IMG/VR virus record: IMGVR_UViG_3300009165_000036
Location: 1 to 24,612 of that record
From: a virus
Strand: one strand, 5' to 3'
DNA length: 24,612 bases
The translations under genes and the position numbers were made by a program. Under the pieces are notes generated by a model, which worked only from the letters and a program-made list of their open reading frames with translations, was not told where the DNA came from and made no database searches. The number at the start of each line of letters is the position of its first letter. Positions within the stretch are counted from its first letter, which is position 1. Of the stretch, positions 7,400 to 21,544 are shown one piece after another.

Positions 7400-9468
7400 C
7401 ATCTGTTATTGATAAATATTACGCTTTCCGCTCGGAAGTTGCGAAGATCAAAGAGAAATATGCTACGAAGGCAAACCGTACATTCCGTTTGACGGATAAA
7501 CTCGCAGATATCATATCGGGCGAAGATCGCGGGAAGATGCGAAATCCATACGCACAAGTCGCGACACTTTATGCGTGCATATCGAACAAGGCGCGGAACA
7601 TTTCGCAAATTCCCATTATGATCACGAAAGAAGGAAGCGATAAGCCAATCAAGGATAATGATCCGCTTATGATTTTGTGGAACAACCCAAATCCATACGC
7701 GACATCAAGACAATTGATTGAAGCATCGGTCATCTTCAAACAGTTGGACGGTGAATGGTTTGTGTACCCGGATTATGCAAAGACGATCAACGGCGGATGG
7801 CCGGTTTATTTGTGGCACTTGTCGCCGAAAGATGTAAAGACGGAAAGGAATGACGGCGGCGTATGGACCGGCTGGAAAGTCGATCGTCTGAAACTTGTCC
7901 TTGAACGTGATGAATTGATCCACGACAAATATTTTAATCCTGATGATTTTATCCGTGGCCTTGCGCCCATGAAGTCACTTGAAAAGACAGCAAACATATA
8001 CTATTACGCGCAGAGATTTACGGAAACATTTTTTGAGAATGACGCGGTTCCAGGCCTCATACTTGAAACCGAAAAACCGTTGTTAAATGATCAAGTAACG
8101 AAGCTAAACGATGATCTTTCGAAAAGAAAGGGCGTCGAAAAAGCACATCAATTTCTTTTGCTTCACTCCGGCCTTACCGCGAAAACAATCACACCGTCAT
8201 CGAAAGACATACAACTTTTAGAAATGTTGAAGTTGACGACAGACGACATATGCGCGGTGTTAGGTGTTCCAAAATCGGAATTGAGTTTACGCGAAGGACT
8301 CAATTATGCAACCGCGTTAAGCGAAGACCTTGGATATTGGAAAAAAACCCTACTTCCCGAACACGCGGCAATATGCGAGACGTGGAACAAACAATTTTTT
8401 AATATTTATGGATACGAAATAAAGGGCGACTATAAAAAGTTAGACGTGCTCAACCGCGAGATACTTGAAAAAGTAACGGCGGTTGCTGATCTTTGGTCAA
8501 CGAAAATGTTTACGATGAACGAATTGAACGAACGGTTTGAACTCGGATTCGAGGAACGGCCTGAGCGTGACGAATTTCCGAGTGAGCCGGAACCCGAACC
8601 GCCCGCGCTTGTGGCCGAACCACCGGATAACACAACCCCTCCGGCGCCATCGGACAATAAACCAACAACAAGCGCGGACGAACCGGGTAAAAAGATCGTT
8701 GATCTGAAATCAATACGCGCGAAAAAATGGCGTGATCTCGTCTCGAAATTATCGCCTGTCACACATAAGGCGATCTCTGATATCCGGGCGTATATCAACG
8801 GCGTAAAAAACAAAACGAGGAAAAGTTTGAAGTCATTCGCCGAAACAAAAATGACGCCGCCTGACATCGACAGCATTATCAACAATTTGAGCGATGCAAA
8901 ATTGAAAAAGGTCATGCAAAAATGGCTCGAACAGGCGAGCGCGGAGGGTGTTGAATCGATCGGCACTCAATTTGCCTTAGCTGATGATGCGGCTGAGGCG
9001 GCGCTGTTGATGCGGCTCGGAAAGATAAAACGGATCAACGACACACTCCGTGAAGAATTGCGGACGGTGTTACAGGATAGCATGATTGCAGCCTCAGAAG
9101 GTCGGACATTATCAGAAGCTGAGACAGCAAAACTATTGGAAGAGAGCGTCGAACAAGTGTTCGCATCCGCTTTGCATCGTGCAAAGACAATCGCTCGAAC
9201 GGAAATACACGGCGCATACTCTGACGCTCGGTATACGGCGATGGATATGTCACATCCGTATGGTAAACAGTGGCTATCAACAAAAGACGATTTCACACGG
9301 GACGCACATCAAGAAATTGATGGTGAGGTGAGGTTGTGGAACGATCATTTTTCGAATGGCCTTGATCGCCCGTATGATCCAGATGGTCCGGCTGAGGAAG
9401 TGATAAATTGTCGGTGTGTGATGGTCCCGATATATGATACGGATGAATTCAGAGAACTTGGAGGCTGA
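7387..9468 (+). CDS. Portal protein fused to MuF-type head morphogenesis domain
   Basis: The 693-residue product joins two proteins usually encoded separately. Residues about 1-390 are an HK97/SPP1-type portal: ATLYACISNKARNISQIP near 57-74, then GVPKSELSLREGLNYATA near 293-310. The dodecameric portal is the DNA gate of the capsid. A Pro/Glu-rich linker (about 392-438, including PSEPEPEPPALV) follows. Residues about 560-690 match the phage head morphogenesis (SPP1 gp7/Mu F) domain: AKTIARTEIHGAYSDARY, then a conserved H-x-E-I-D-G and a terminal EEVINCRCVMVPIYD with the N-C-R-C signature. The ATG lies inside the terminase gene behind a G-rich site. I see no frameshift or stop between the two halves. 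Confidence 0.9.
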   Translation: MGRLTSVIDKYYAFRSEVAKIKEKYATKANRTFRLTDKLADIISGEDRGKMRNPYAQVATLYACISNKARNISQIPIMITKEGSDKPIKDNDPLMILWNNPNPYATSRQLIEASVIFKQLDGEWFVYPDYAKTINGGWPVYLWHLSPKDVKTERNDGGVWTGWKVDRLKLVLERDELIHDKYFNPDDFIRGLAPMKSLEKTANIYYYAQRFTETFFENDAVPGLILETEKPLLNDQVTKLNDDLSKRKGVEKAHQFLLLHSGLTAKTITPSSKDIQLLEMLKLTTDDICAVLGVPKSELSLREGLNYATALSEDLGYWKKTLLPEHAAICETWNKQFFNIYGYEIKGDYKKLDVLNREILEKVTAVADLWSTKMFTMNELNERFELGFEERPERDEFPSEPEPEPPALVAEPPDNTTPPAPSDNKPTTSADEPGKKIVDLKSIRAKKWRDLVSKLSPVTHKAISDIRAYINGVKNKTRKSLKSFAETKMTPPDIDSIINNLSDAKLKKVMQKWLEQASAEGVESIGTQFALADDAAEAALLMRLGKIKRINDTLREELRTVLQDSMIAASEGRTLSEAETAKLLEESVEQVFASALHRAKTIARTEIHGAYSDARYTAMDMSHPYGKQWLSTKDDFTRDAHQEIDGEVRLWNDHFSNGLDRPYDPDGPAEEVINCRCVMVPIYDTDEFRELGG

Positions 9469-9471
9469 GAA

Positions 9472-10134
9472 ATGGACATGAAAAGAATTGTCGGAGAGAT
9501 AAAATCCGAGAATAATAAATATGCCGCATGGGCTACGACGTTGACAATCGATCGGTCGAACGAAGTTGTCGTACCTGAGGGAATTACGAATCAAAAAGAA
9601 TACCTCACGAAAAACCCGATCATGTATTACGACCATGCATGGGCGTCCGGGTTTTCAGGACCGAGTGAATCGTCGTTGCCGATCGGCAAGGTCACGGGGA
9701 TGGAAATTGTAAAAGGCAAAGGGATAAAAATTGATTTTGAGTTTTCATCTTTGCCTTTTGCGCAGAAAATCAAAACTCTTGTGGATGAAAAGATTCTACG
9801 CTCGATTTCAATCGGATTCATTCCGCAGAAAAAGGAACACGATCCGACGATTATACAGAGTGAATTGACACAAGCCGGATTGATGTTGACTAATACCGCG
9901 CCGGATTGTGTTGTCACAAAATGGGAAATGCTTGAAAACTCTGTTGTAGGAATACCGTGTAACAGAGATGCGGTGATCCTTAACAGCTACAAACCGGAAA
10001 TCAAGAAGATCATTGATGATATTGAACACGATATCGAAGATATCAAGAGCACGACGGGAACCGTAAAGGTGGAATCGTGCGGAGATCATCACGAATATCG
10101 ATTCAATACATCGAAAAAATACGGAGGAAAATGA
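9472..10134 (+). CDS. Prohead protease (HK97 family, peptidase U35-like)
   Basis: The 220-residue serine protease would cleave the capsid scaffold domain during maturation. The family's catalytic pair is visible: His55 in YYDHAW and Ser113 in SISIGF (Ser111 is the alternative). The fold's opening strand pattern (IDRSNEVVVPEG) and NPIMYYDH are typical. The C-terminal tail beyond about 165 is acidic and helical. ATG 9472 has GGAGG upstream at good spacing; an ATG two codons later is an alternative. It sits between portal and capsid genes, as the family usually does. Confidence 0.88.
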   Translation: MDMKRIVGEIKSENNKYAAWATTLTIDRSNEVVVPEGITNQKEYLTKNPIMYYDHAWASGFSGPSESSLPIGKVTGMEIVKGKGIKIDFEFSSLPFAQKIKTLVDEKILRSISIGFIPQKKEHDPTIIQSELTQAGLMLTNTAPDCVVTKWEMLENSVVGIPCNRDAVILNSYKPEIKKIIDDIEHDIEDIKSTTGTVKVESCGDHHEYRFNTSKKYGGK

Positions 10135-10135
10135 A

Positions 10136-11536
10136 TTGAACTATATTGAAATGAGACAGAAAAGAATCGCGGAGATTGAAGACAATCTCAAAATGCTTGA
10201 CGAAATGATCAAGAAATCCGCGAACGCAGAGGACGCGAAACCGTATTCGACGAAATACGACGCGCTCCTCATGGAAAAAGGCCGTGTTTCGCTTGAAATT
10301 GAGATCGAGGAAAAGCGGATCGCGGACGAGACGAACGCGCAGCGCAAAGCGGAGACGCCCGCGGTAAAAGCGTTCGGCACGGAACCGAAAATCGTTGTTG
10401 GTACGCCGTCCGATTACAAGGGTTTTAACCTCAAACGGGAAATGGAACATCTGAAAGATCGGATGACCAGAAAAACCGGATGGATGAGCGACGAATCAAA
10501 AGATCGGCTGAAATCCGAAGCAAACGTTGAACTCATTACGAAGATCGGCGCGGACCTGCTCATTAAAGCCGGATACGATCCACGGACCGGAGAATTTTCT
10601 GGAAAATCCCGCCGGGAAGTTGACGCAGAAATGAAAGCCGTTGTCGCCGAGGGTACTTCTGTTGCAACAGGCTCCGGCCTCGTTCCAACGGAAGAGGAAA
10701 ACGAGTTGTATTACTACATGCGTGATACATCGAAGGCTTTGCAGTTTGCAACGGTCGTACCGATGAACTCGGACACAAAAACCTTGAATGGTGAACTCGC
10801 GAAAGTCGATGTCACGTTCGGCGCGGAAACCGAGGCAATCGCAGAGACGGAGCCGACATTTGAACAGACAACGTTGACCGCGCGCAAGGCGACTGGTTAT
10901 TCGCTTGTGACGAATGAGTTTATCGAGGATACGTTCCTCACCGGTGGAATTATCGGCGTACTTCTCCCGCAGTTCCTCGAGGCGATGGGTCAGAAAATTG
11001 ACTCTGTTGTGTTCGTCGGCACGGGTGCGGATTCCGCGCTTTTCTCGGGTATCATGCTTGGGCGCACGGGAATCTATTCGGAGGTATTTTCTACAGGTTC
11101 ATCGAACTTTTCCGAATTGCTTTATGCTGACGTTACCGGAATCCTTTCGCAGGTGCCTGAACTTTACATCGGCGGGAATGGCCGGTGGTACATGAATCAG
11201 GTTGTGTTGTACAACTATTTCGCGAATGTGAAAGACACAACCGGTAACCCACTTTTCTTGGAGACGAGAGGCGGCGGAGGTGTTCCGCGTCGGATTCTTG
11301 GCTATCCCGTTGAACTCGTGACGAAATGTTGGAGCACGACAGCGGCAAGCCGCGCGATGTGTATCTTTGGTGATTTGTCGGGCGTCTATCTCGGACGACG
11401 GATCGCGTCAACATCACTTGTTGTTGATCCGTACACAGCAATCAACAATGATGAGACAAAGTTCTATTTCAGACAGCGGTGGGCGTTCGCGGTCCCGCTC
11501 CCGTCGAAACTTGGACGTATTGTAACGGCCGCATAA
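10136..11536 (+). CDS. Major capsid protein, HK97 fold, with scaffold-like N-terminus
   Basis: The 466-residue protein forms the icosahedral shell. Residues about 1-80 are a charged coiled coil (IAEIEDNLKMLDEMIKK...), acting as an internal scaffold (delta domain). The mature part probably starts before the conserved GSGLVPTEEENELYYYM region at about 178-192. Later segments such as VPRRILGYPVELV and a C-terminal YFRQRWAFAV are typical of HK97-type shells. The upstream protease would remove the scaffold. Translation starts at TTG 10136, chosen because GGAGG sits eight bases upstream; the first ATG is five codons later and too far from it. A strong hairpin follows the stop. Confidence 0.92.
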   Translation: MNYIEMRQKRIAEIEDNLKMLDEMIKKSANAEDAKPYSTKYDALLMEKGRVSLEIEIEEKRIADETNAQRKAETPAVKAFGTEPKIVVGTPSDYKGFNLKREMEHLKDRMTRKTGWMSDESKDRLKSEANVELITKIGADLLIKAGYDPRTGEFSGKSRREVDAEMKAVVAEGTSVATGSGLVPTEEENELYYYMRDTSKALQFATVVPMNSDTKTLNGELAKVDVTFGAETEAIAETEPTFEQTTLTARKATGYSLVTNEFIEDTFLTGGIIGVLLPQFLEAMGQKIDSVVFVGTGADSALFSGIMLGRTGIYSEVFSTGSSNFSELLYADVTGILSQVPELYIGGNGRWYMNQVVLYNYFANVKDTTGNPLFLETRGGGGVPRRILGYPVELVTKCWSTTAASRAMCIFGDLSGVYLGRRIASTSLVVDPYTAINNDETKFYFRQRWAFAVPLPSKLGRIVTAA

Positions 11537-11555: not shown

Positions 11556-11580
11556 AGGGGAGGGATATCCCTCCCCTATT
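11556..11580 (+). terminator. Terminator-like hairpin after the capsid gene
   Basis: AGGGGAGGG, an ATAT loop and CCCTCCCCT form a perfect GC-rich stem (full palindrome 11556-11577), preceded by AAA and followed by ATTTT. It lies 20 bases after the capsid stop and 16 bases before the glycosyltransferase ATG. It may end most transcripts or stabilise the 3' end of the capsid message while letting some read through; the T tract is short. Confidence 0.7.
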
Positions 11581-11595: not shown

Positions 11596-12753
11596 ATGAC
11601 AATTAACTGGGCTGTGCTGACACACTACATCGGAATTGGTTACGGATACTCGACGCATCAAAAACGTTTGAGCGAAGCACTCTTGCGCGCGGGCGTGAAG
11701 TTTGACAAGGATGCGGATGTCGCGGTCCATCTTACGACACCCGATTGTTTTACGCCCGTTCCCGGAAAGTACAACATCCTCTATACGATGTATGAGTGTC
11801 AAACGCTCCCCGAAAAATGGCAGAAGGAAATTCAACAGGCTGACTTGATTGTTGTTCCGTGTAAACAGAATAAATATTTATTTGAACGATACACGAAAAT
11901 ACCGGTTGAGATATGCACGGAGGGTGTTGAGACGGACAAATATCTTTACCACGAAAGACATTTTCCAGAACCGTGGAACAGGGCGAATCCGTTTGTTTTT
12001 ATGTGGTTCGGCGCGACGAATCCGAGAAAAGGATATGAGCATGTGATCGCGGCATGGGAAAAATTTAACCTTTACCTTTTCAAAAATTACGGGAACTGCG
12101 AGCGCGAAAAGTTTATGCTGATTATGAAAACCACTCAGGAATCAGACCGCGAAGCAACGGTCAAGGTTGATTTCAGATATGAAAATGGACAGATAGCTTT
12201 GAAGGACACGTTGAAAGAGACGTTGAAAGCGGAGCGCGTAATGAAGGTCGCTGGTAATGTGCTCGTTGATACCCGTCGGCTACCTGTTATATGCGAGAAC
12301 GAGAATCAGAAAAGCCCTGAATCGCTCGTCGGATATTACAACGCGGCGCACTGTTTTCTGTTCCCCACACGCGGGGAAGGATTCGGGCTTACACTCGCAG
12401 AGGCGATGTCAACCGGGTGTCCGGTGATCTATACGCCGTGGTCCGGGCCTGTTGATTTTTGCGACGAGACGACAGGATACCCGCTCAACTTTAAGTTTTC
12501 GCCGGTCCGCACAATCGGATTCGACGAAGAAAAAAAGCCGTTCATCTCGAACGAATCGACGGCGGCTGATCCGTCCGTTGAACATCTTGTCAGGCGGATG
12601 ATTCAAGTCTATAAGGATTACGACAAAGCGTTGCAAAAAGGAAAGCGTGCGGCGCAGAGAATCCGCGATGGTTTTACATGGGATATCTCGGCGCGGCATA
12701 TGATCAAAATAATTCAAAAATATACGGGTGAAAGATTGGAGGCGGTCGCTTGA
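11596..12753 (+). CDS. Glycosyltransferase, GT4-like (GT-B fold)
   Basis: The 385-residue protein would transfer a sugar from a nucleotide donor. The GT-B C-terminal domain has the E-x7-E signature: GEGFGLTLAEAM with Glu261 and Glu269, followed by STGCPVIYTPWSGP. The N-terminal domain begins with an IGIGYGYSTHQ strand-loop resembling the Gly-rich acceptor loop, and WFGATNPRKGYEHVI near 136-150 marks the inter-domain strand. ATG 11596 follows AAAGGTGGCGGA; an in-frame upstream ATG inside the capsid gene would add an unrelated extension read through the hairpin. Acceptor is unknown: capsid, tail or host surface are options. No hydroxymethylase is in the window, so DNA glucosylation is less likely. 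Confidence 0.88.
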   Translation: MTINWAVLTHYIGIGYGYSTHQKRLSEALLRAGVKFDKDADVAVHLTTPDCFTPVPGKYNILYTMYECQTLPEKWQKEIQQADLIVVPCKQNKYLFERYTKIPVEICTEGVETDKYLYHERHFPEPWNRANPFVFMWFGATNPRKGYEHVIAAWEKFNLYLFKNYGNCEREKFMLIMKTTQESDREATVKVDFRYENGQIALKDTLKETLKAERVMKVAGNVLVDTRRLPVICENENQKSPESLVGYYNAAHCFLFPTRGEGFGLTLAEAMSTGCPVIYTPWSGPVDFCDETTGYPLNFKFSPVRTIGFDEEKKPFISNESTAADPSVEHLVRRMIQVYKDYDKALQKGKRAAQRIRDGFTWDISARHMIKIIQKYTGERLEAVA

Positions 12754-12754
12754 A

Positions 12755-12790
12755 AACTTTCGGAAAACTTTTGAAAACTTTTGAAAATAG
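12755..12790 (+). repeat. Short tandem repeat upstream of the radical SAM gene
   Basis: GAAAACTTTCG, GAAAACTTTT, GAAAACTTTT and GAAAA follow one another, a 10-11-base period that fills the gap after the glycosyltransferase stop and precedes the GAAAGGA ribosome site. Regulatory binding, or simple slippage, are both possible. Confidence 0.75.
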
Positions 12791-12802
12791 AAAGGATTCA
12801 AA

Positions 12803-13633
12803 ATGATAAACATTTTATTTTTCCCGACGATGCGGTGTAACCTTAAATGTGAATATTGTCATTTCAAGGTTGAGAATGTCGAGGGTGGCTACACATGGGA
12901 AGGGTACGGGAAAGAGCATCGGATCGAAAATGAAGTTTCACCTCACGATGTATTAGATTTTCTATTGAAGAATAAACCTTTTCATTTAGAGTTTTCAGGT
13001 GGCGAGCCGACACTCTGGAAAGGTTTCAAAGAACTCGTCAACAGTATCCCTGAGGGTAACACATGGGCAGTAACATCAAACACACTCGGGAATGTTGATG
13101 AAATAGATTTCGCAAATTGTAAAGCGTGGACCGCGTCATATCACGGCGTCAACTTAGAGAAGTTCGAGAAAAATATTTTTTCGATCCGTGATAGGTTCCC
13201 GTATATATTCGTCAATATCGTTGCTCAAAAAAGCAACGTTGATGAGGCAGTGCGAAGAGCGTTTCATTTTATGGCGCGCGGCGTGCGCCCGAACATTCTC
13301 CGGGAATTGAACCCCGGCGTCGATTGGCGTGAAAGCAAAGAATGGGATTTTCTCGCTGACTTGAAAACGGTCGGCATGAATATTGTTGAAGACGACATCC
13401 CGCCTTCGTTTGACTTCGCGGCCGGATACACATGCCATGGAGGCGAATCGTATTTCGCAGTTATGCCTGACGGATCGTTGTATCGTTGTTATTCGGACGC
13501 GATGCGTGGGGAATCGATCGGAAAGATAAATGAATATGAAAAAAATGATGAAATGTATCGGTGTTTCAAGCCGTGCCTTGGTTGCGCGATGGACCACAAA
13601 GCACGAGTTACAAAAATAGGCGGCGCAAAATGA
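12803..13633 (+). CDS. Radical SAM protein with SPASM/twitch-like C-terminus
   Basis: The 276-residue protein would use an Fe-S cluster and S-adenosylmethionine to make radicals. The cluster motif C-x3-C-x2-C is at Cys12, Cys16, Cys19 (TMRCNLKCEYCHF), and the AdoMet-binding GGEP at 66-69. The C-terminus shows Cys211-x12-G-x4-Cys229 (CHGG...MPDGSLYRC), the first part of the SPASM pattern, followed by Cys254, Cys258 and Cys261. This suggests one auxiliary cluster, closer to a twitch domain than a full seven-Cys SPASM. Family members often modify peptides or proteins. ATG 12803 follows GAAAGGA. It sits between a glycosyltransferase and a membrane peptide within the structural operon; substrate unknown. 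Confidence 0.88.
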   Translation: MINILFFPTMRCNLKCEYCHFKVENVEGGYTWEGYGKEHRIENEVSPHDVLDFLLKNKPFHLEFSGGEPTLWKGFKELVNSIPEGNTWAVTSNTLGNVDEIDFANCKAWTASYHGVNLEKFEKNIFSIRDRFPYIFVNIVAQKSNVDEAVRRAFHFMARGVRPNILRELNPGVDWRESKEWDFLADLKTVGMNIVEDDIPPSFDFAAGYTCHGGESYFAVMPDGSLYRCYSDAMRGESIGKINEYEKNDEMYRCFKPCLGCAMDHKARVTKIGGAK

Positions 13634-13707
13634 CAGCGGCTCCACTGCTCGGGCTGATAGGATTGATCGTACTCGTCATTGCTCTGATTATATGGAGGAA
13701 AAAATAA
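13630..13707 (+). CDS. 25-residue single-span membrane peptide
   Basis: ATG 13630 overlaps the radical SAM stop (ATGA) and the TAA overlaps the next gene's start (TAATG), so the frame is tightly coupled at both ends. The peptide is MTAAPLLGLIGLIVLVIALI followed by IWRKK: one hydrophobic helix with a positively charged C-terminus, predicting a short transmembrane peptide with its C-terminus in the cytoplasm. There is no Cys, Ser or signal cleavage site. The Shine-Dalgarno is weak (AGGCGG), fitting translational coupling. It could be a small-membrane accessory, or a substrate or anchor linked to the radical SAM protein; function is inferred only from position. Confidence 0.55.
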   Translation: MTAAPLLGLIGLIVLVIALIIWRKK

Positions 13708-14198
13708 TGGGTGAAATGCTTGTCAAGAAAGCCGACTCTCACTGGACGGATTTTCTCACGCCGGAACAGCTTGCAGAGGACAATATAAAGCTCATAGCAT
13801 ATCTCGAAAAATCTCCAGGCGGGTTTATCGTTGAGGTACAGCCGGACGGTTTTTTTGCGACGCCTGAAAACTTGACCGGGCGCGGATGGCGCGGCGATAA
13901 ATTCAATCTCGTAAAAGTTACGAATGGAACAGTCGCGCAGATATACGCGACGGTCAAGAACAAAGAGAAGATTATAATTTTCAACGGGCAGGAAATCCCG
14001 GCTTTATCTGAAGTACTCGATCTGACGAAACTCGATCCGCCCGTACCGTGGGAAACTGGATTGTATCCCGTGCGATATATCTACACATCGACACTAAACA
14101 AACTGAAATACAAAACAGTCGATTACTCCAAAGTAGCCGACTTGATTGAACAAACTGATATTGACCCTAAGATTGCAAAGGCGGCAAGGCTGAAATAA
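13707..14198 (+). CDS. Hypothetical 163-residue protein between cargo and surface protein
   Basis: The start MGEMLVKKADSHWTDF at ATG 13707 is preferred to an in-frame ATG five codons earlier, because GGAGG at 13694-13698 is correctly spaced for it and would otherwise lie inside the gene. The product has a small beta-rich centre (GGFIVEVQPDGFF, FNLVKVTNGTVAQIY, IIIFNGQEIPAL) and a helical C-terminus. No family is recognised. Both ends overlap neighbours as TAATG, so it is co-translated with the beta-helix surface protein gene and may be its assembly partner or a head-associated protein. Confidence 0.7.
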   Translation: MGEMLVKKADSHWTDFLTPEQLAEDNIKLIAYLEKSPGGFIVEVQPDGFFATPENLTGRGWRGDKFNLVKVTNGTVAQIYATVKNKEKIIIFNGQEIPALSEVLDLTKLDPPVPWETGLYPVRYIYTSTLNKLKYKTVDYSKVADLIEQTDIDPKIAKAARLK

Positions 14199-15586
14199 TG
14201 GCAACAGCGCGGACACGATATGCAAATACTGATGTCTCAGGCGGCGCGGCGGATGGTACGAGTCTCGCGAATGCTTACTCCTCTTTGTCCGCGCTCGAAG
14301 CTGCCGAGGATGATCTGGGGAATCTCGTGTCACGCGATGAGTGGCTCGATGTTCGCGCATATGCGAGCGCGGGAACAGCTGATACAACAAAATGCACGAT
14401 CGCCGGGTGGACGTTAGATGGTACACGATACATACAGATCGATAGTCCTGACGGATCGTACAAGCTCGAAGTGAGCAATGATGACGCGCTTGTCATTCAG
14501 TGCACGAACATCAAGTTTAAACGAATTCGCGGAACCATCACAAGCGGCGACAGCACGAACGATATTTTCTTTGATGGTTCGTATGTAGCGGCAGCCGCAA
14601 CGTGTGAAATTGATCGGTGTTATGTGTACGCATCTGGTTCGACAGTGTTCACCGTATTCTCATTCACCGATTCGGATTTTACTTTTTACATACGCTCGTC
14701 AATTTCGGAATCTGTTTCGACTGGACGCGGGCATTATCACGTCGCGAACACCGGGTATATTTATCAGTGTACCCACAAGGGAGGCGCGAGCGGTTTCCGA
14801 TCAGGTACAAGTGGCACATACACGCTTACGAACGATATCTTTTTCTCTACGGCTGATGATATTATTGTCGGAGCAGGATCAACAGTCAACACTCTTAATT
14901 GTGGTACGGACGATGGTGATGGAACAAATCCGATCGATGCGGTTGACGATGACTGGTCGAACGAATTCACAGACTACGCGAACGGCGATTACACGCCTCT
15001 GAACTCAGGCAACATCTATCAGGCCGGAGCTGACCTCGATATTGCCGCGGACTACGCCGGTAATGCGTTTGATTCATCAACTCCGACAATCGGAGCGTAT
15101 GAATATGTATCAGCGTCATCCGACACCGAATTGACGGTTGCGGATATTGATATTGGCCTTGATGTCGCGTTGGATGCGAATCCGTTGACCGCCGCCGCGC
15201 AATTATCAATCGATGATATTGATATCGGCCTTGATGTTGCGATGGACTCAAACGCGCTCACGACAGCCGCTCTGTTGAGTGTAGCGGATATTGATATCGG
15301 CCTTGATGTTGCGATGGATGCGCCGGACATTATTTATTATACACTTGGCGATACTGTGCTTGTCGTCGATGATGTGAGTATCGGCCTTGATGTCGCGATG
15401 GATGCGCTTGTGCTTACATCCGCGTCGACACTATCGGTCAATAATATTGATATCGGTTTAGAGATAATTTTTGATGAAGTACCGGACGCTGATAAACCGG
15501 TAAGCGTAAGTTTGACGGCGACCGTTAAATCAATTACGGTGTCGGCGTCCGTCGAACAGATAACAATTGAAGCGGTGGAGGTATAA
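14198..15586 (+). CDS. Beta-helix virion surface protein with repetitive C-terminus
   Basis: The 462-residue protein begins MATARTRYANTDVSGGAADG, then AYSSLSALEAAEDD, an N-terminus typical of phage and environmental right-handed beta-helix proteins. Residues about 65-290 show regular strand-turn repeats (CTNIKFKRIRGTI, CEIDRCYVYAS, YIYQCTHKGG). STPTIGAYEY at about 293-302 resembles the end of choice-of-anchor Q-type domains. Residues about 314-430 hold five copies of a 24-28-residue unit around DIDIGLDVAMDA. Such architecture suits a head fibre, spike or adhesin that binds host glycans. It is flanked by small structural genes, supporting a virion role; enzyme activity on polysaccharide is possible but no catalytic residues are recognised. 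Confidence 0.75.
   Translation: MATARTRYANTDVSGGAADGTSLANAYSSLSALEAAEDDLGNLVSRDEWLDVRAYASAGTADTTKCTIAGWTLDGTRYIQIDSPDGSYKLEVSNDDALVIQCTNIKFKRIRGTITSGDSTNDIFFDGSYVAAAATCEIDRCYVYASGSTVFTVFSFTDSDFTFYIRSSISESVSTGRGHYHVANTGYIYQCTHKGGASGFRSGTSGTYTLTNDIFFSTADDIIVGAGSTVNTLNCGTDDGDGTNPIDAVDDDWSNEFTDYANGDYTPLNSGNIYQAGADLDIAADYAGNAFDSSTPTIGAYEYVSASSDTELTVADIDIGLDVALDANPLTAAAQLSIDDIDIGLDVAMDSNALTTAALLSVADIDIGLDVAMDAPDIIYYTLGDTVLVVDDVSIGLDVAMDALVLTSASTLSVNNIDIGLEIIFDEVPDADKPVSVSLTATVKSITVSASVEQITIEAVEV
15143..15480 (+). repeat. Coding tandem repeats in the surface protein
   Basis: Five units start at about 15143, 15215, 15287, 15371 and 15443 (spacing 72, 72, 84, 72 bases). The best three share near-identical DNA such as GATATTGATATCGGCCTTGA. 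The outer copies are more diverged, and the fourth carries a four-codon insertion. Recombination between units could change copy number in frame. Confidence 0.9.
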
Positions 15587-15587
15587 C

Positions 15588-15674
15588 ATGGATACGGTTT
15601 TGAAAGTCGATAACATTTCTATAAAATTAAGAAAGCGTCTCGTCAAAAAAGAGAACGCGGAGGAGAAGAAATAA
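15588..15674 (+). CDS. 28-residue basic peptide
   Basis: ATG 15588, two bases after the surface protein stop, has GGAGG about eight bases upstream. TAA 15672-15674 overlaps the next ATG (TAATG). The product MDTVLKVDNISIKLRKRLVK plus KENAEEKK is short, with a strand-like start echoing the V-x-N-I-x-I rhythm of the upstream repeats and a charged tail. It is too small to classify; the ribosome site and stop/start coupling favour a real gene over chance. Confidence 0.5.
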   Translation: MDTVLKVDNISIKLRKRLVKKENAEEKK

Positions 15675-16063
15675 TGGCAAAGTCATTTAATGAAACCGCG
15701 CCTCTTGATGCGGCGCTCAACGTCATCAAAAACAACGCCGTTGAATTGACGGTGTGCTCAACACAACCGACGACATACGCGGAGGGTCATACGACCTATA
15801 AACTCGCGGGTGTTACGATTGACACCGGAGATTTCACAGGTCCGGCGGCGGGTGATGCGGGCGGACGGAAATTGACCGTCGCGCAACAGGCGACAATCAC
15901 AATCACAGCGTCCGGGACCGCCGCGCATGTCGCGTTGCTCGATAGTGACGACACGCTGTTGCTCGTGACGACGTGCACCAATCAGGCGTTAGTCGATAAT
16001 GATGCAAATACGGTTACGGTCCCGGCGTGGGATATTGAAATTGATGTGGACACAATAACATGA
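15674..16063 (+). CDS. Small beta-rich structural protein
   Basis: The 129-residue product (MAKSFNETAPLDAALNVIKN, then a Thr/Ala/Val-rich beta region: KLTVAQQATITITASGTAAH, TLLLVTTCTN) resembles small phage proteins sitting between capsid and connector genes, recalled by eye. Such proteins may decorate heads, but no named domain is certain. Its start overlaps the 28-residue peptide stop and its TGA overlaps the connector ATG (ATGA), placing it inside the morphogenesis operon. Confidence 0.72.
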   Translation: MAKSFNETAPLDAALNVIKNNAVELTVCSTQPTTYAEGHTTYKLAGVTIDTGDFTGPAAGDAGGRKLTVAQQATITITASGTAAHVALLDSDDTLLLVTTCTNQALVDNDANTVTVPAWDIEIDVDTIT

Positions 16064-16995
16064 CGCTATTAACGACGAAGCTGACAAATAAAAGCGGCGC
16101 AAGTATCGAAGTTACCCTCAAAGATGAGGCGAGCGATAATATCTCCGCGTCGTTTATCTCGAACCTCAAATGGTCGCTCTATGATGCGGACGATGCGGTC
16201 ATAAACAGCAGGTCCGATGTTGTCGTGACGCCGATCGCAAATCCGTTTTATGTGACGCTTACGGCAAGCGATACGGACAACGCGGACGGGTTAAAGAGAA
16301 AACTTGTTGTGACGTTTGACGCCGATACATCGTTAGGTGACGACATTGCGCAGGAACAGACAATTATTTTTGAGATTGAAGGCGACGCGGACGAAGCGGT
16401 CATACTCGACGTTGAAAATAATCTGATTACGTTGACACAATTGCAGACGTATTTAAACGTCTCGACGGCGGACGGGTACGACGACAGACTTGAAGATATT
16501 ATCAACGCAGTGTCTGAGTTTTGCAACACGTACACTGGAAGAAAACTTAAGGCGCGGAATCTCGTCGAGTATTACGACGGGGACGGCGGTGATGAGCTGT
16601 ACGTTGATAATCCTCCGATCAATTCTACGCGGTCAACTATCCAGATATGGGGTGACACCGATGTGCCGCGTTCGTATGACACCGCCGATCTGTACAGCGC
16701 GGACAGCATCGATATTTATTCAGACCTCGGAAAAATCATTTTACTCGATGACTCGTTTTTGTCCGGTAGAAAAACAATCAAGGTATCGTACAACGGTGGA
16801 TATACGGTTATTCCGTATCAGTTGCAAAGGGTCGCGCTTAAGATTTGCGCCGCGCTCTGGAAAACGGAGGTTGATAAGCTCGCCGGGGTTCGCACGATCG
16901 CGGGCGGTGGTGGATCAATCAATCTCGATATTGAATCAGTGTTGACACAATTCGATCGCGATGTGTTAGACACGTTCAAGAGGATAAAGATTTGA
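16060..16995 (+). CDS. Head-tail connector with extra N-terminal beta domain
   Basis: Residues about 120-311 match the gp6-like head-tail connector pattern: LITLTQLQTYLNVST near 121-135, DDRLEDIINAVSEFCNTYTGRK near 140-161, then YYDGDGGDELYVDNPPI near 170-186. It ends in a helical segment that would stack under the portal ring. Residues about 1-115 are a separate beta-sandwich-like domain (ASIEVTLKDEASDNI, LKWSLYDADDAVI, FYVTLTASDTD) resembling Ig-like or upper-baseplate domains. The usual connector is about 100-200 residues, so this is a fusion. It overlaps the neighbours upstream (ATGA) and downstream (TTGA). Confidence 0.82.
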   Translation: MTLLTTKLTNKSGASIEVTLKDEASDNISASFISNLKWSLYDADDAVINSRSDVVVTPIANPFYVTLTASDTDNADGLKRKLVVTFDADTSLGDDIAQEQTIIFEIEGDADEAVILDVENNLITLTQLQTYLNVSTADGYDDRLEDIINAVSEFCNTYTGRKLKARNLVEYYDGDGGDELYVDNPPINSTRSTIQIWGDTDVPRSYDTADLYSADSIDIYSDLGKIILLDDSFLSGRKTIKVSYNGGYTVIPYQLQRVALKICAALWKTEVDKLAGVRTIAGGGGSINLDIESVLTQFDRDVLDTFKRIKI

Positions 16996-18017: not shown

Positions 18018-19007
18018 ATGGGAAACATTACCGGACAAGGCGCGGTCATACAGTTTGCGTCAAAGGCAGATTGGAATATCACGCCTGAAACACCGACTTT
18101 ACAAGTCGAATTTACGAGTGAGGGTTTGAAGCTCAATAAAAATTATATTGACTCAGACGCCCTTCTCGGAAACATCACAACAAACAGGATGGACCCCGCC
18201 GGGCAGTCGTGCGACGGTCCATGGTCGATGATCGTGCATCCGAATAACATTGGATTGTTGTTATCAGCGGCGTTCGGATCGGAGTCGTCAGCGGACGGAG
18301 TCGGCGCAACATCGACAATTTACGCACATTCATTTTCATGTGTCCCGTGTGGGAGCGCATACAGCTTGCCGATCTTGACGGCGGTCGTCGATCGTGTGCA
18401 GTCGTGCGTCGCGTATCCGGCGGTTAAAATCGACTCACTTTCGATTAACGCGAAAGTAAATGATTACGTGCGAGCGGATTTCTCGTCGCGAGGGATCGGG
18501 GAAGTTGCCGGGACAAAGGCGAGTCTTTCATATTCAACTTTGCGGCCGTTCCAGTTTATTGATCTCGCGGTTTCGGTCGATGGAACTCCGCTTGCGGATG
18601 TGACCGACCTGAAATTAACGATCAACAACGGACTCGAAACTGATCTTTATTGCGCGGGCGCGAGCGCGGAATACATGAAAGAGATCGAACCGCAAGCGCG
18701 GGAAATTACCGGTACGATCGAGATGTTGTATCAGGATGAAGCGGACACAATTCGTGAATCTAATTTCAAAGTCGGGACGGCGCTGTCCGCCGTATTCACA
18801 TTTACATCAACCGAACTCGCCGGGGAAGGTGAATATTATGTTCTTCGCATAACGTTGCCAACATGTTACATCACCGATGCGCCGGTAAACGTAGGCGGAA
18901 AAGATAGAATCCGAATACCGCTGTCATTCAAGGCGGTGCAGGCGACGGGCACGGAACCAATTACAATTGTACTTGTAGACAAACAAGCTACAAAATATAT
19001 CACATAA
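18018..19007 (+). CDS. Major tail tube protein
   Basis: The 329-residue protein starts MGNITGQGAVIQFASKADWN and has beta-rich segments including VKIDSLSINAKVNDYVRADF and LSVDG-type strands (DLAVSVDGTPLADVTDLKLT). These match the siphovirus tail tube fold in which hexameric rings stack into the tail. It sits after the terminator and before the chaperone and tape measure genes, the conserved order. GGGAGG precedes the ATG. No sheath gene follows, supporting a non-contractile tail. Confidence 0.85.
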   Translation: MGNITGQGAVIQFASKADWNITPETPTLQVEFTSEGLKLNKNYIDSDALLGNITTNRMDPAGQSCDGPWSMIVHPNNIGLLLSAAFGSESSADGVGATSTIYAHSFSCVPCGSAYSLPILTAVVDRVQSCVAYPAVKIDSLSINAKVNDYVRADFSSRGIGEVAGTKASLSYSTLRPFQFIDLAVSVDGTPLADVTDLKLTINNGLETDLYCAGASAEYMKEIEPQAREITGTIEMLYQDEADTIRESNFKVGTALSAVFTFTSTELAGEGEYYVLRITLPTCYITDAPVNVGGKDRIRIPLSFKAVQATGTEPITIVLVDKQATKYIT

Positions 19008-19630: not shown

Positions 19631-21544
19631 ATGGCAGAGATAAAATACAGGATAACCGCCGAGGACAAAACCGGCGCGGCTACGAACTCCGCATCGAATA
19701 ATATTTCCGGCATGGCAAACAAGTTTGTCAAAATGGCCGGGGTAGCAATGGCCGCGATTGCGGGCGCAAAGGTCGTAATTGATTTCGGTGTTGCTTGTTC
19801 TAAGGCATTTATGGACGCTGAAAAATCAGCGATGAAACTTGAAACAGCAATAAAAGCCACTGGGATGTCAGGGAAAATATCCTCAAAAAATCTCGCCGAA
19901 CTCGCGGCGCAATTGCAAGAGGTTACGAGATTCGAGGATGACGCGACAATTGCGGCTATGGCGACATTACAAATGTTCGGGGAACTCGATGAAAAATTGA
20001 TTACCGATTTGACTCCTCATGTGATGGATGTTGCAGAGGCGCTTGACGTTGATCTTAATCAAGCGGCGATGATGGTTGCAAAAACGCTTGACGGATCGAT
20101 GAATGCCTTTGCGCGATACGGTATCGAACTTGATATGACAAAATCAAAAACCGAACGCGCCGCGCAATTGACCGAACAGCTTGAAGGAAAATTCGGTGGG
20201 CTTGCAAAGGCAATGGGCGAAACGACAGAGGGAAAGCTCGCGATACTTGCGAATAAATGGAATGATGTTATGGAAGACATCGGAGCGGTCATAAATGAGG
20301 TACTTGTACCGATACTCGGTGTACTGGGTGATATTATAGACGCAGTTGGAAAAGTCGTAAAAGGTTTCCGGGACATGCTCGGCGCGATAAAAAACACCGT
20401 TGAATGGATCGGGAAAGGCGAAAAAGAACAAGAGAAAATGCAAAACGCCTTGCACCTCACGACAAAGGGAATTGAAGCGTACCAGAAAGCGACCGGTGAA
20501 ATGCTCTTGCCAAAAAACGCATCTAATAATCAACTGATTGCATATCTCGAACAGGCTAAGGGGAAATTAAACGAACTCGGAACCGCTCACGATAAACTCG
20601 TGAAAGACATTCAAAATGCAGTTGATAAAAACGAAGTCGCGGCTGGTCCCGATCTTGTGTCGAAGTTTACAAACAAAATGACGGACATGTACAAGTCGCG
20701 GGATGAATACGAAAAGTTGATGATTGCGAATGAACAGGAACAAGGCCGAATGTTGGCGTACATCGAACAGCTTGAGGCGGCAATCACAACATCGAAAAAA
20801 GGACAGAACGCAGAATCTGAAAAGCAGACGGAAGAATTATTGAAACAACTTGACATCATGAAAGAACGTCAAAGATGGATCAACGAAATCAACGAGATCA
20901 ATCCGACGGTCCAGAAATATCAAGGAATGGGCGGATATAAAGGATCGGAGGGAATGGGAGAAGCAAAACCGAAAGAACCAGATATGTTGTCTGGACTTAT
21001 TGACGGTGCGTTCGGTCATCTCATCTCAAACGTTGAGAATCTCGGAAAGTTGCTTGATCCAATAACAACTTTCCTTGACGGTTTCCTTTCGATTATCGGC
21101 GGACCGTTGAACGACGCGCTGCAACCGCTTGTGAATCTTCTGATGCAACTCGGAAAAATTGTCGGTCAATTATTGCTCCCTGTTATTCAGATTTTAGGAT
21201 TTGTAATTAAGGGTGTTGCCGCGTTCATCGCGATGATATTCAACGGGATCGCGACGGTCATTAACTTTTTACTCGGATGGGCTGGTGTGCATATCGATTA
21301 CATGAACGTCGGTAATCTATCGCAGGAATCAGGCGCGGCGTCAAGTGGTTCAACATCCGGCACATCGTCTGAAAGCTCAACCTATTCCGGCGGAATGTCT
21401 CAATCGACCGCCTCACCGGTGTATAATGTAACCGTAAATGTTTACGCTGGTATTCTTGAAGCAGGGGATAAGGTCATGACGACAGACGACCTTGCATTAT
21501 TTATTCGTGACAGGATTTCTGCGCTCGCGGAGGTTGGCAAGTGA
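19631..21544 (+). CDS. Tail tape measure protein
   Basis: The 637-residue protein sets tail length and probably helps DNA entry. It begins with AEIKYRITAEDKTGAATNSA, then hydrophobic segments near 33-60, and the tape-measure signature KTLDGSMNAFARYGIELD near 150-167. Long helical and coiled-coil stretches (about 160-460) follow, then a hydrophobic block at about 513-552 (LLLPVIQILGFVIKGVAAFI...). A Ser/Gly/Thr-rich segment (about 565-592) and a short folded C-terminus end it. At the usual 1.5 angstrom per residue, a tail of about 95 nm is inferred. ATG 19631 has CGGAGG upstream; the TGA overlaps the next gene's GTG. Confidence 0.9.
   Translation: MAEIKYRITAEDKTGAATNSASNNISGMANKFVKMAGVAMAAIAGAKVVIDFGVACSKAFMDAEKSAMKLETAIKATGMSGKISSKNLAELAAQLQEVTRFEDDATIAAMATLQMFGELDEKLITDLTPHVMDVAEALDVDLNQAAMMVAKTLDGSMNAFARYGIELDMTKSKTERAAQLTEQLEGKFGGLAKAMGETTEGKLAILANKWNDVMEDIGAVINEVLVPILGVLGDIIDAVGKVVKGFRDMLGAIKNTVEWIGKGEKEQEKMQNALHLTTKGIEAYQKATGEMLLPKNASNNQLIAYLEQAKGKLNELGTAHDKLVKDIQNAVDKNEVAAGPDLVSKFTNKMTDMYKSRDEYEKLMIANEQEQGRMLAYIEQLEAAITTSKKGQNAESEKQTEELLKQLDIMKERQRWINEINEINPTVQKYQGMGGYKGSEGMGEAKPKEPDMLSGLIDGAFGHLISNVENLGKLLDPITTFLDGFLSIIGGPLNDALQPLVNLLMQLGKIVGQLLLPVIQILGFVIKGVAAFIAMIFNGIATVINFLLGWAGVHIDYMNVGNLSQESGAASSGSTSGTSSESSTYSGGMSQSTASPVYNVTVNVYAGILEAGDKVMTTDDLALFIRDRISALAEVGK

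Follow-up and report, generated by a model that had tools for sequence, protein, structure and literature searches.

Why should a phage head module carry a glycosyltransferase (GT) and a radical SAM enzyme (rSAM)? The window, by which we mean the whole analyzed stretch of 24,612 nucleotides of IMG/VR virus record IMGVR_UViG_3300009165_000036, holds both genes between those for the major capsid protein and the head-tail connector (Table 1). An initial annotation proposed that the two enzymes and a coupled 25-residue membrane peptide form one system, foreign to morphogenesis, that modifies a virion protein, the peptide itself, or the host surface. We consider it probable that the locus is a modular virion-decoration cassette in which the GT would glycosylate the adjacent structural protein and the rSAM would tailor the sugar; the acceptor, the donor, the action of the rSAM on sugar, and the benefit are what we infer. 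Two sibling contigs are 99.98 to 100% identical to the window, and one of them, 41,025 bases long, has the same 123 bases at both ends, which closes the genome at roughly 40.9 kb. The sibling genome also contains a GIY-YIG nuclease gene, likely a homing endonuclease (L011:7541-8122, E = 2e-11), and two genes that match the gp34- and gp33-like families of phage Pam3 (L011:14019-15531), a hint of kinship (Pam3 early genes).

Table 1. Gene map of the cassette region and its surroundings in the window
Feature	Position	Strand	Remarks
HK97-type major capsid protein gene; its product is the likely acceptor	10136..11536	+	Pfam Phage_capsid E 6.7e-35; cassette directly 3' in most relatives
Palindromic hairpin in the capsid/GT gap, weakly terminator-like	11556..11577	+	
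GT4 glycosyltransferase, E261/E269	11596..12753	+	
Short stretch of AAAACTTTTG-like repeats separating GT and rSAM	12754..12802	+	Relatives may hold a sulfotransferase, SDR, or methyltransferase gene here
Radical SAM enzyme, type A, with CX3CX2C and CX12GX4C...CX3CX2C auxiliary-cluster motif	12803..13633	+	
Predicted membrane peptide ORF, 25 residues, probably outside the cassette	13630..13707	+	
Lineage-specific insert (p168, p462 with C-terminal repeats, p129) in the rSAM/connector gap	13692..16063	+	Most relatives lack the insert, with the rSAM abutting the connector
Head-tail connector, bounding the cassette site on the right	16060..16995	+	phrog_442 head-tail adaptor E 2.9e-16
Tail protein (label from gene order)	18018..19007		PHROG label: minor tail protein

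The GT is a 385-residue protein read from an ATG start. Its GT4-like character, first suggested by an E-x7-E motif, is confirmed by matches to Pfam Glycos_transf_1 (E = 1.1e-11, 45.0 bits against a gathering cut-off of 26.4) and to a PHROG glycosyltransferase family (E = 8e-25), and by both glutamates of the GT4 EX7E motif, which are conserved among relatives. The GEG...E motif reappears in nearly all aligned GT relatives.

The window's rSAM, which we call type A, is a 276-residue protein that carries C12-x3-C16-x2-C19 and GGEP at residues 66 to 69, as annotated, and scores 31.0 bits against PF04055 (cut-off 29.5). The five C-terminal cysteines described earlier as a partial SPASM layout (211, 229, 254, 258, and 261) are arranged as CX12GX4C...CX3CX2C. 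Since all five columns are kept as Cys in five divergent type-A homologues, the set reads as a genuine auxiliary-cluster signature, with one Cys beyond the minimal twitch. The general SPASM/twitch motif CX9-15GX4C - gap - CX2C is present both in type A and in a second form, type B, discussed below, while the Pfam SPASM profile (cut-off 21.5) gives 14.5 bits for the window's protein, below threshold, and 28.7 bits for type B, above it. An AF2 model of type A, weak at its C-terminus, finds its best structural matches among the rSAM enzymes PqqE, BlsE, and MoaA, with TigE also high. A direct tblastn search of 50,697 phage records with type A returned nothing at 1e-3, and relaxing the threshold to E 10 brought up no more than short stretches of weak similarity. 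Scans of GTDB genomes detected no relative of the rSAM and, using the GT alignment, none of the GT.

Whether the two genes belong together was addressed by scanning IMG/VR independently in GT-first, rSAM-first (type A and type B), and capsid-first directions. The GT scan used an alignment of the GTs of the window and locus L019, and it yielded 20 further divergent loci. Clustering at 90% DNA identity left 42 non-redundant loci, all found through similarity to this cassette; a relative comes within reach of the searches only if it has short conserved peptides in common with a query, and remote, scattered forms may have escaped them. Of the 42 loci, 37 have a GT4 relative, accompanied by an rSAM in 30 and without one in six; the remaining locus, L048, ends before the slot. 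Put the other way, every rSAM locus carries the GT (30/30), and 30 of 36 testable GT loci carry the rSAM. Independent scattering of the two genes is thus not seen. Adjacency of GT and rSAM is not a matter of local chance, as the arrangement recurs in about 30 divergent phages, and the rSAM is not obligatory for the GT because six GT loci do without it. Distances between GT and rSAM correlate at r = 0.78, compared with 0.66 for GT and capsid; tighter co-travel of the two enzymes than with the capsid gene is the direction expected, but the difference in this distance-matrix test is not significant (bootstrap 17% at or below zero).

Five distant capsid relatives (L089 to L093) have the connector straight after the capsid gene with no cassette, and the cassette is therefore an insertion into a simpler head module. 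This bears out the earlier placement of the two genes as an insert, here at the capsid-connector junction. The other parts of that annotation fared less well. The 25-residue peptide, whose ORF overlaps the rSAM stop by an ATGA, occurs in identical siblings and is absent from relatives, so that the single system stands for the GT and rSAM and the peptide is probably neither a member nor a substrate. The hairpin after the capsid gene is a real, perfect G+C-rich palindrome (fold z -2.2); its terminator character is weak, with a weak T tail, and the region has about as many terminator-like sites as chance would give (9 against an expected 7.8). Within the lineage-specific insert, p462 (window 14198-15586) has 462 residues, shows no family match in Pfam or PHROG, and repeats a motif of the form DIDIGLDVAMD four to five times at its C-terminus. 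L043 carries an HMM match to this protein near its far end (20205-21029).

The usual gene order is terminase-portal-protease-capsid-GT-(accessory)-rSAM-connector. The accessory slot may be filled by SDR proteins of the nucleotide-sugar epimerase type (L029 and L036, SDR E = 1e-16 to 1e-20), methyltransferases (L019, L036, and L067), or sulfotransferase-like proteins (L028, L032, L041, L065, and others), the matches of which fall below Pfam cut-offs except in L088. GNT-I is another accessory type. Loci without the rSAM contain other glycosyltransferases or methyltransferases (L046, L047, L085, and L087) or a sulfotransferase (L043). Individual genes are also exchanged within an otherwise constant frame. 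L052 and L061 align at about 81% DNA identity over the stretch that runs from the terminase gene to the tape measure gene, and their GTs are 92% identical in amino acids. One of the two, however, has type A as its rSAM and the other type B, proteins without similarity to each other (E = 2.4); the DNA match breaks off and restarts at the borders of the rSAM ORF. The same kind of difference separates L066 from L068, there at a sulfotransferase gene. Such single-gene exchange is what would be expected of surface-structure diversification.

The cassette is found at two sites. In L062, L069, L070, and L043 it lies among tail genes, and a major tail protein (phrog_10528) is encoded directly after the cassette in L062, L069, and L070 and directly after an extra GT in L071. 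In the two loci tested, L069 and L070, the site is 3' of the tail terminator. The pairing is kept even in L062, L069, L070, L084, and L088, which have the cassette genes in inverted order. In the GT tree, the four tail-site GTs form one clade (support 0.91) within the capsid-site GTs, and the extra GT of L071 branches apart from it. That gene (L071:7754-8794) is a second GT4 copy, in a phage that has both GT and rSAM at the capsid site. In L062, an HK97-gp10-like head-tail gene (8235-9578) contains what looks like an intein (Hint_2 E = 1.5e-6, Intein_splicing E = 4.5e-4) with a DUF559 endonuclease-like part.

These locations bear on what the enzymes modify. Changing host surface glycans is a common role of phage GTs, and the PHROG category of this GT is moron/host takeover; the cassette could accordingly serve receptor masking or superinfection exclusion, its place in the late operon being incidental. 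We regard this as improbable, as neither the GT, which has no obvious membrane segment, nor the rSAM shows an evident membrane anchor in its sequence, and as the cassette occurs in inverted orders and at two locations, each next to the gene for an abundant virion protein, with a separate clade of tail-site GTs. The DNA bases of some phages are modified by rSAM enzymes and GTs, which would offer a role in base hypermodification. That role is very hard to credit here: no thymidylate-synthase-like, hydroxymethylase, or base-hypermodification family was found among ten of the larger genes elsewhere in the sibling genome, and the cassette tracks structural genes. Among the outcomes listed in the initial annotation, glycosylation of a virion protein is favored because of the position beside capsid and tail-tube genes and because sulfotransferase, epimerase, and methyltransferase genes are swapped in.

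Clues to the rSAM substrate come mainly from type B, first found in L019, which has C191-x11-G203-x4-C208 and C251-x2-C254, with the cysteines invariant in 25 sequences. With its AF2 model (pLDDT 94.6) as query, the top Foldseek matches are BlsE and BtrN; the entry title of BlsE assigns this enzyme to blasticidin S biosynthesis. A type-B profile run against PDB sequences matches BtrN alone (E = 1e-6), whereas type A has no detectable sequence match to BtrN. BtrN is a twitch rSAM that oxidizes an aminocyclitol and uses four cysteines to hold its auxiliary cluster (PMC9012708). A function read from type B may extend to the window's type A by analogy, on the basis of their common slot. In VIA-align, SuiB, anSME, and BtrN tie at Z of about 19, such that the fold does not split sugar- from peptide-acting enzymes.

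It is conceivable, if rather unlikely, that the rSAM acts on protein, giving the capsid or tail protein a radical cross-link, epimer, or oxidized residue, either independently of the GT or as a glycan anchor. Twitch/SPASM rSAMs often have peptide substrates, the best structural matches include SuiB, anSME, SkfB, and PqqE, and the cassette adjoins structural genes. However, these rSAMs lack an N-terminal recognition domain or extension, with CX3CX2C starting at residue 11 to 12, and the same absence, together with that of a conserved precursor, disfavors the RiPP-like system with the small peptide as its substrate. Tailoring of a glycan by the rSAM is the likelier activity, because every other exchangeable cassette gene is of a glycan-tailoring type, neither a recognition domain nor a precursor is seen, and the nearest sequence match (for type B) is BtrN, a small-molecule enzyme.

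In the virion-decoration reading, a soluble GT4 would move a sugar from an activated donor onto the major structural protein encoded next door, within the infected cell; the acceptor would be the capsid protein at one site and the major tail protein at the other. The rSAM/twitch enzyme would modify that sugar, before or after transfer, by hydrogen abstraction, with oxidation, epimerization, or deoxygenation as possible outcomes, and its auxiliary 4Fe-4S cluster would take up an electron. Optional sulfotransferase, SDR, methyltransferase, or further glycosyltransferase genes would vary the final glycan, and the presumed benefit is an altered particle surface. More tentatively, this may be a widespread phage system in which rSAM and GT jointly build and switch radical-tailored glycans on capsid and tail-tube proteins, gene-by-gene exchange acting like particle serotype switching.

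Few cases of glycosylated phage particles have been described, and here a conserved, exchangeable enzyme set with a radical enzyme accompanies the capsid and tail-tube genes of divergent uncultivated phages. If the proposal holds, radical chemistry is used for virus-particle decoration, the cassette could serve as a marker for spotting decorated particles in metagenomes, and the rSAMs form a new group of twitch enzymes with a substrate predicted by position.

Comparison with known systems places the locus as a variant, since capsid glycosylation and GTs in head-tail blocks are known and the rSAM partner is undescribed in the literature searched. Virion glycosylation in phages is thus familiar, and the new element is the rSAM as a core partner; no description of a phage rSAM and GT capsid cassette was found in that literature, which excluded preprints and most subscription papers. 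For the same reason a GT in a morphogenesis module is not abnormal, contrary to the initial annotation: GTs in such regions and glycosylated capsids are on record (KellEzio; PMC11256854). Gene 28 of Arthrobacter phage KellEzio encodes a related GT4 (22.5% identity) inside the head-tail block, directly after the tail terminator, but its annotation shows no adjoining rSAM gene. Mycobacteriophages Che8 and Rita carry glycans covalently on their major capsid proteins (PMC11256854, citing Freeman et al. 2023); they resemble the present case in having phage-encoded GTs, and their glycosylated major capsid proteins parallel the modification proposed here. In the related phage Maravista, the GT genes are instead near the 3' end of the genome, and the accessible sections of the same source mention no rSAM partner. 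On the enzyme side, BtrN (2-deoxy-scyllo-inosamine dehydrogenase) resembles type B in its length of about 250 residues, its rSAM fold, and its single four-Cys auxiliary cluster (VIA Z 19.1, rmsd 2.8 over 218 residues). It differs in sequence (16% identity), in belonging to a cellular antibiotic pathway, and in having no tie to a GT4 or virion, and the window's type A is further set apart from it by a fifth C-terminal Cys.
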